This document shows, in pieces, positions 9,073 to 10,285 of a stretch of 10,285 nt of DNA. The first letter of the stretch is position 1. Every line of letters starts with the position of its first letter. This DNA is from a bacterium. GTDB taxonomy: Bacteria; JALSQH01. Under the pieces are notes generated by a model. The model did not search any database, was not told where the DNA came from, and saw only the letters and a program-made list of their open reading frames with translations. The stretch lies in the NCBI GenBank assembly GCA_026985515.1, contig JALSQH010000163.1, forward strand, positions 1 to 10,285. The letters are read 5' to 3'. The position numbers were made by a program, and so were the translations under genes.

Positions 9073-10185
9073 ATGTTTGGTAGTGAAAGATTAAAATATG
9101 AGAAAGAGGGAAATGAATTTTTATTATTCATCAGAGAAGACACACAGAGAATAAGAGTTATCAAAGGAGATAAAAACAAAGTTGTCGTTTTTATACCCTA
9201 TGATCCAGGCTTAATAGATAAGATTAAAACAATTAATGGCAGGAGGTGGAATCCAGAGAAAAAATACTGGGAGTTACCATTCAGAGAAGACTTAATATCA
9301 AAACTTAAAATCCTTTTTCCAGAAAACCTTTCTATTGATCCAGAGCTATATCTTTTTCCTTTGGAAAAAGAGCTTACAATTAGAAAATACTCAAAGAGAA
9401 CAGTCAGATCCTATGTTAGTATAAATAGAAACTTCCTCAACTGGATTGGTAAGGAACCTGAAAATGTGAATAATCAGGATATAAAAAAGTACCTGTATTA
9501 CTTAGTAGAACAAAAGGAAAGGTCAACCTCAACAATTAATATTGTAATAAACGCTTTAAAATTCTATTATGGAGAAATTCTAAAGAAAAAGTTTATTTAT
9601 GATATCAGGCGACCCAAAAAAGATAAAAAGTTGCCTGTCGTTTTGAGTAGAGAAGAAGTTTTAAAAATTATTTCTGCCATAAACAACATAAAACACAAGG
9701 CAATTATATCACTCGTTTATTCCTCTGGATTGAGAGTGGGAGAAGTTGTTAAACTAACAATAGAGGACATAGATACTGAAAGTAAACTCATTCATATTAA
9801 AGAAAGTAAGGGAAGGAAAGATAGGTACACCCTGCTTTCAGAACATGCTCTGCAAATCTTGAAAGATTACCTTAAAAAATACAGACCTTCAAAGTGGTTA
9901 TTTGAAGGATCTCAAAAGGGAAACCATATATCCACCAGAACAGTTCAGGCAATTTTCAAACAGGCATGTGAAAAAGCGGGAATTAAAAAGCCTGTAAGTG
10001 TCCATTCCTTGAGACACAGCTTTGCCACTCATCTATTAGAAAGTGGAGTGGATCTGAGGTATATTCAGGAGATCCTGGGGCATAAGAGCAGCAAAACAAC
10101 GGAAATTTATACCCATGTGAGTAAGGCGAACATTGCTAAAATTAAAAGTCCGTTTGATGGAATTATGGAGGAGCAAAAGGAATGA
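9073..10185 (+). CDS. Tyrosine recombinase with HARP-like N-terminal extension
   Basis: A 370-residue site-specific recombinase acting on DNA. The catalytic domain (about 188-355) has all six expected residues: Arg221 (SSGLRVGE), Lys246 (ESKGRKDR), His311 and Arg314 (HSLRHSFATHLLESG), His337 (LGHKSSKTT) and Tyr346 (IYTHVS). A SAM-like core-binding domain fills about 97-180. Before it is an extra segment; residues 36-82, with INGRRWNPEKKYWELP, resemble the HARP DNA-binding motif of SMARCAL1-like proteins. The end of the protein is XerC/D- and IntI-like, but Lys246 to His311 is 65 residues, close to XerD and without the insertion of integron integrases. An in-frame TAA just before the ATG fixes the start. 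The gene is visibly more A+T-rich than the importer genes, consistent with acquisition. Its stop overlaps a possible next start. Confidence 0.95.
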   Translation: MFGSERLKYEKEGNEFLLFIREDTQRIRVIKGDKNKVVVFIPYDPGLIDKIKTINGRRWNPEKKYWELPFREDLISKLKILFPENLSIDPELYLFPLEKELTIRKYSKRTVRSYVSINRNFLNWIGKEPENVNNQDIKKYLYYLVEQKERSTSTINIVINALKFYYGEILKKKFIYDIRRPKKDKKLPVVLSREEVLKIISAINNIKHKAIISLVYSSGLRVGEVVKLTIEDIDTESKLIHIKESKGRKDRYTLLSEHALQILKDYLKKYRPSKWLFEGSQKGNHISTRTVQAIFKQACEKAGIKKPVSVHSLRHSFATHLLESGVDLRYIQEILGHKSSKTTEIYTHVSKANIAKIKSPFDGIMEEQKE

Positions 10186-10285
10186 ATACTGTTTCGAAAG
10201 TAAGGCATATCCGCAATACTGCGTATACACTTCTATATTGGGAAAATATACGCAATGCGGGTATAACTGAGTTGTGCGCAATCAG
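10182..10285 (+). CDS. Possible short or 3'-cut CDS coupled to the recombinase
   Basis: An ATG at 10182 overlaps the recombinase stop (ATGA) and follows GGAGGAG (10167-10173) by 8 bases, an ideal ribosome site. The frame stays open for all 34 codons to the window edge (starts MNTVSKVRHIRNTAYTLLYW). I recognise nothing in the product. The same bases form an imperfect palindrome, so the frame may be open by chance; an open run of this length is not rare. If real, it is a recombinase partner or the first cassette gene. Confidence 0.3.
   Translation, partial: MNTVSKVRHIRNTAYTLLYWENIRNAGITELCAI
10192..10199. repeat. Perfect 8-bp palindrome TTTCGAAA
   Basis: A self-complementary octamer 7 bases past the recombinase stop and 7 bases before the larger inverted repeat. 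It could be an operator or part of a recombination site, but short palindromes also occur by chance. Confidence 0.3.
10207..10264. repeat. Bulged imperfect inverted repeat next to the recombinase (possible recombination site)
   Basis: Two paired blocks form a long hairpin. The outer block is ATATCCGCA (10207-10215) with TGCGGGTAT (10256-10264), 9 bp including one G-T pair. The inner block is TGCGTATA (10220-10227) with TATACGCA (10247-10254), a perfect 8 bp. Four unpaired bases on the left face one on the right, and the hairpin loop is 19 bases. Two paired boxes with asymmetric extrahelical bases recall folded attC sites. Typical GTTRRRY core ends are not clear; GTTGTGC at 10271 is one base off. 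CGCAAT occurs three times (10212, 10251, 10277). It is not terminator-like, as no T-run follows. Confidence 0.6.

Follow-up and report, generated by a model that had tools for sequence, protein, structure and literature searches.

Integrons are in practice defined by an IntI integrase together with attC sites. IntI integrons, of the class 1, Vibrio and Treponema denticola types, have an integrase, an adjacent attI with a G^TTRRRY crossover, and tandem attC cassettes with co-oriented ORFs. The reverse layout, in which the site lies past the 3' end of the integrase, is known from Spirochaetota (PMC9668308). Archaeal integrons have been described in 75 MAGs (Ghaly et al. 2022, PMC9668308), where attI lies on the downstream side of the integrase and 539 attCs but only six IntIs were counted; these six were detected by means of the IntI-specific domain, and are said to carry it (PMC9668308). 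IntegronFinder calls an IntI only if profiles for PF00589 and for the IntI-specific domain both match (PMC9668308), and attC arrays without a detectable IntI are termed CALINs (PMC9024848). Messier and Roy (2001; cited in PMC9668308) are the source for the view that integron recombination cannot do without this domain. Because published detection requires this domain, platforms that do not have it would be missed, and their cassettes counted as CALINs.

The window analysed here (the whole stretch of DNA, 10,285 nt) is the complete contig C163 of a draft genome of 2.36 Mb in 268 contigs. The final gene of the contig encodes a tyrosine recombinase, with 100 nt between its stop codon and the contig end. 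The contig end coincides with a cassette boundary, and the contigs of several relatives likewise stop within about 150 nt of the corresponding site. We conclude that the contig very probably ends at a reverse-integron platform whose integrase is not an IntI. The locus is an integron by its layout, and its integrase falls outside IntI as defined by tree position and by the IntI-specific domain. The features are listed in Table 1. An Rfam search gave no credible match.

Table 1. Features of the integrase gene and the predicted attI region, in window coordinates.
Feature	Position	Strand	Basis
Integrase, tyrosine recombinase of a clade outside IntI and outside XerC/D	9073–10185	+	ORF, Pfam, NCBIfam, tree
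HARP-like N-terminal domain (aa 39–70)	9187–9282	+	PF07443
Catalytic domain without IntI-specific insert (aa 191–351)	9643–10125	+	Pfam; comparison with VchIntIA (2A3V)
Putative attI accessory dyad 1, arms ATATCCGCA / TGCGTATAC	10207–10228		Alignment of 46 sites, pair counts
Central stretch CTATATTGGG, where relatives have a conserved CCAAATTTGG block	10233–10242		Alignment of 46 sites
Putative attI accessory dyad 2, arms ATATACGCA / TGCGGGTAT	10246–10264		Alignment of 46 sites, pair counts
Predicted attI core: L box GTATAAC, spacer TGA, R box GTTGTGC	10261–10277	+	Motif model
Putative first-cassette start TTGTGCGCAATCAG, cut by contig end (14 bases)	10272–10285	+	Start consensus GTTRNNYGMAAT

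The integrase is a complete ORF of 370 residues that matches PF00589 Phage_integrase at 1.1e-48, and its catalytic residues are among the invariant columns in an alignment of 22 relatives. The top family above cut-off is NCBIfam NF040815, 'site-specific tyrosine recombinase/integron integrase' (261 bits, cut-off 220); against the integron integrase family TIGR02249 the protein scores 225 bits, under the cut-off of 265, in a match split into two stretches. The additional domain that IntI proteins carry around patch III is absent, there being 14 residues where VchIntIA (2A3V) has 56. Between the Lys motif of patch II and HxLRH there are exactly 59 residues in 44 of the 44 clade members measured, compared with 62–67 in XerC/D and 100 in IntI, the last figure being that of four IntIs, as the pattern failed on 8 of 12. 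In a quick tree of 94 proteins, with SH-aLRT support only, the IntIs form one group on one side of a branch (99) and XerC/D another (100). The window integrase is in neither, but in a separate clade (100) with proteins from Acidobacteria, Spirochaetes, Caldisericales and an Alkanophagales archaeon. Two other Xer proteins of the same genome, on contigs C99 and C11, do group with XerC/D. An AlphaFold model of the integrase (mean pLDDT 82.7, with a low pTM of 0.52) gave IntIA (2A3V) as the first structural match and XerA as the next. XerA-type recombinases (NF040815; PDB 5HXY) are also the closest named family above cut-off, and likewise have no IntI insert. The function described for XerA is to resolve chromosome dimers at dif, whereas the recombinase here is linked to attI and cassettes, and is fused to a HARP-like domain.

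This domain sits within the N-terminal 95 residues. It scores 20.2 bits against PF07443 (HARP), just under the cut-off of 25, and the same domain in a relative, L033, scores above it at 26.5 bits. HARP domains of SMARCAL1-type proteins are associated with DNA annealing and with branched DNA, so that the domain could plausibly help to recognise folded attC or the attI arms here. It is not required in the wider group, since HARP-less relatives in Patescibacteria (L102) also have attC arrays. At L102 (Candidatus Falkowbacteria, MFGJ01000001.1, 7019–9773), several minus-strand attCs lie directly upstream of the integrase, with an attI-like GTTGTGC close to its 5' end; this corresponds to the divergent arrangement of classical integrons, and here too the IntI insert is absent. 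The preliminary description of this DNA had already recognised a complete tyrosine recombinase with a short Lys-to-His interval, no IntI insertion and a HARP-like extension absent from classical IntI, and all of this agrees with the results above.

An imperfect palindromic region (10206–10265) starts about 21 nt after the recombinase stop codon. Folded as single-stranded DNA it beats 195 of 200 shuffles on the plus strand (z −2.3) and 198 of 200 on the minus strand (z −2.7), which is modest when taken alone; the decisive support for the site is its conservation, rather than the significance of the fold. A model of the core motif, built from relatives with the window left out, scores 21.1 at 10259–10282; the best of 3000 dinucleotide shuffles reaches 13.1, and no other place in the window exceeds 7.3. 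The core consensus among relatives is TATGAACGAG^TTRGGYGAAAT. The core of the window is near this consensus, is of RYYYAAC / GTTRRRY type and adjoins the recombinase, and crossover is expected between 10271 and 10272, at the G^TT of the R box (GTATAAC-TGA-G^TTGTGC). The last 15 bases of the window are GTTGTGCGCAATCAG; the final 14, at 10272–10285, match the cassette-start consensus (GTTRNNYGMAAT) derived from 46 array cassettes.

Upstream of the core are two dyads, built of the half-site ATATNCGAA / TTCGNATAT, with a CCAAATTTGG-like block between them. Their four arms covary. A single long attC-like hairpin was tried against local palindromes and the fit was equal, with 83.3% of cells paired between dyads and 84.1% within them, so that neither wins. 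Because pairing is equal in both ways, repeated half-sites for protein binding are a better reading of the arms than a single hairpin of attC type. The arms are probably extra integrase binding sites, possibly for the HARP-like domain. Judged by sequence, the region as a whole has the anatomy of an attI, namely accessory repeats, L box, spacer and an R box with G^TT.

The preliminary description had pictured an attC-like bulged hairpin with two paired boxes. The palindromic region stands, by both fold and conservation, but its form as a single hairpin is not uniquely supported, and the likeness to attC gives way to a platform site of attI type; true attCs lie further downstream in relatives, and differ in look. 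Its authors had also proposed that the lack of a second copy, or conserved flanking genes, would speak against their reading. There is indeed no second copy of the site in the window's genome, yet this has no bearing on an attI, which is single-copy and so expected to occur once; relatives do carry the site, and the genes past it differ among them. The placing of the site past the 3' end of the integrase, as in reverse integrons, is matched by the same layout in relatives. The further proposal that this DNA borders a cassette array run by a non-IntI recombinase is borne out by the attC arrays of relatives and by the absent IntI insert.

These relatives came from a scan of public genomes with an alignment of three clade members, which gave 80 loci; an earlier scan of genome contigs with a single protein as query had found no relative. 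In around 50 related loci there is an integrase with the site on its 3' side. Their hosts include Nitrospirota, WOR-3, Spirochaetes and Acidobacteria, and among archaea Methanophagales, Archaeoglobi and Altiarchaea, a spread that may be inflated by binning errors, as most of the relatives are MAGs. The attI motif scored high in 43 of the 56 clade loci with enough 3' flank, and a clear match to this gapless model is missing in the other 13. The conserved unit occurs once per locus, at a distance of 44–290 nt from the integrase on its 3' side, with no further copies in the arrays; beyond it, the sequences of relatives share nothing. Viral contigs gave two distant relatives only. In eight loci (L047, L049, L052, L072, L075, L078, L089 and L104) the integrase is frameshifted or truncated, and attI and array are still present. 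Related integrases are also found in Flavobacteriaceae and their relatives (L098, L109, L097, L105 and L110), followed by long attC-like sites and co-oriented genes, and on the Chryseobacterium plasmid NZ_CP041688.1 (L156), where the array is accompanied by an IS110 element and a group II intron. This plasmid and the Bacteroidota isolates are cultured relatives.

The arrays are clearest in G087 (L020/L061), where three genes follow in succession, each with a site like CACATAAC-ACGGCATATACG...CGTATATGCCG-AAAC-GTTAGCTG after it. Downstream of the integrases, an attC finder gave 49 matches on the cassette strand and 4 on the reverse; upstream it gave 8 and 5. The number expected from shuffles is 5.3. 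A covariance model from 34 of the sites has 19 pairs, with many compensatory changes and 91% of cells paired, a value biased upwards because the sites were picked by a pairing-based finder; the strand asymmetry is free of this bias. The resulting attC model, R1, has 83 matches in 62 sources, and almost every one has the expected position and the orientation of the cassettes. The sites have R''-L''...L'-R' anatomy and a GTTRRRY end. Successive sites have a median spacing of 865 bp, and in 73 cassette intervals the longest ORF is forward in 69 and reverse in 1. There is little homology among cassettes, which encode HicA, ParE, PIN and other toxin-antitoxin parts, DNA methylases, and many unknowns. 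A cargo of toxin-antitoxin, methylase and unknown genes is usual for integrons.

No match to R1 was found in the 1.5 kb flanks of 12 IntI genes. Attention was also given to 98 species, 9 of which have attCs of R1 type, 8 of these 9 being without an IntI above the family cut-off. Among them, a close HARP-type integrase is present only in the window's genome, G002 and G087, and the HARP clade therefore does not explain all integrase-less clusters. One genome of 99% completeness, G054, has 19 model-matching attCs (L130–L134) and neither an IntI nor a close HARP-type integrase; it is either a true integrase-less cluster genome, or has another recombinase.

The window ends before any array, and in the window and its bin cassette sequence is limited to the final 14 bases. 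In G001, the sole other genome of the window's family that was searched, contig C102 begins inside an attC, which is followed by an ORF of 320 residues and then by a second attC of 47.7 bits. Because of this cassette with its two attCs, we can say that the window's family of organisms carries cassettes of this type. The window's own genome has one weak attC-like match (C63:16596–16682, 29.7 bits, E 0.012), with a degenerate R' box. This site and an unknown ORF of 281 residues lie beside a fragment of a DUF2201-like metallopeptidase, next to a MoxR-type AAA gene (L116, 15290–17038), and it is possible that it represents a cassette inserted outside the platform. Insertion within the DUF2201-like gene was considered but is not claimed, as the joined flanks did no better in Pfam (16.0 bits, compared with 17.1 with the pieces swapped).

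Several other explanations can be set against this evidence. A classical IntI integron whose integrase has lost its IntI-specific domain would account for the integron-like attCs and the array layout, and for IntIA being the top structural match, ahead of XerA. However, the window clade is not nested inside the IntI group (in the quick tree, with its SH-aLRT support only), and the interval of exactly 59 residues is the same in every clade member measured, where IntI has 100. We regard such a loss as highly unlikely. Even less credence is due to the idea that the palindrome is itself the attC of a cassette, with the integrase forming part of that cassette or of a mobile unit. It is true that it folds as a bulged hairpin better than most shuffles, and that it ends in a pair of AAC / GTT boxes. 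Against this, the conserved unit is always single and at a limited distance from the integrase, while the true attCs of the arrays match R1; the window region neither matches R1 nor has the R''-L''-loop-L'-R' anatomy that is repeated between cassettes.

The least probable is that the region is an intrinsic terminator, or an ordinary palindrome between genes, lying after an integrase of phage or Xer type and having no link to cassettes. The modest fold significance (z −2.3) is what one would expect of it, but not a motif that keeps its sequence and its distance to the integrase across phyla and in archaea, and that is then followed by attC arrays.

A reverse integron platform with a non-IntI integrase is thus the preferred reading. 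What has been observed is that the position and core of attI are conserved, that the IntI insert is absent, that relatives have co-oriented arrays punctuated by attC, and that G001 has a cassette with two attCs. By analogy with known integrons, the integrase would bind double-stranded attI just past its own stop codon, and the folded single-stranded attC of a cassette would be exchanged with attI at the G^TT in the R box. Cassettes would then stack downstream, in the integrase's own direction. We infer, rather than observe, the chemistry, which strand is used, what the arms and the HARP-like domain do, and that the array runs on beyond contig C163.

What separates this system from IntI integrons is an integrase that has no IntI-specific domain, branches outside the IntI group and carries a HARP-like domain at its N-terminus, together with an attI of four arms. 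Archaeal integrons (PMC9668308) share an attI just downstream of the integrase and attC arrays in archaeal MAGs; the integrases described here differ from the archaeal IntIs in having no IntI-specific domain, although the two are set apart by description only. CALINs (PMC9024848) consist of attC arrays of the same kind for which no IntI is detected, whereas here a non-IntI integrase and an attI are linked to them. In the open literature, with preprints and subscription journals outside the scope, no paper was found that links HARP or XerA-type integrases to integrons.

We think it fairly probable that there is an integron lineage apart from IntI in many bacterial phyla and in archaea, with XerA-like integrases that are fused to HARP in reverse-oriented platforms and HARP-less in divergent ones from Patescibacteria. 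These would handle ordinary attC cassettes without the IntI-specific domain, would have been overlooked because detection demands that domain, and would explain part of the excess of integrase-less clusters. A widespread platform of this kind would change how integrons are counted, and would assign an owner to clusters that have no integrase, above all those of archaea and candidate phyla. It also raises the question of how a recombinase without the IntI-specific domain recognises folded attC.

It is worth adding two minor observations. At the other end of the window, two ORFs of 475 and 485 residues (14–1441 and 1500–2957) have no Pfam match. In G062, an IS91-type element that has a tyrosine recombinase is present in two copies, on the 5' side of the integrase at L017 and L018; the copies share their flank up to TTCAACAT, and past this point diverge into different attC-like sequences, as if the element targeted attC sites.
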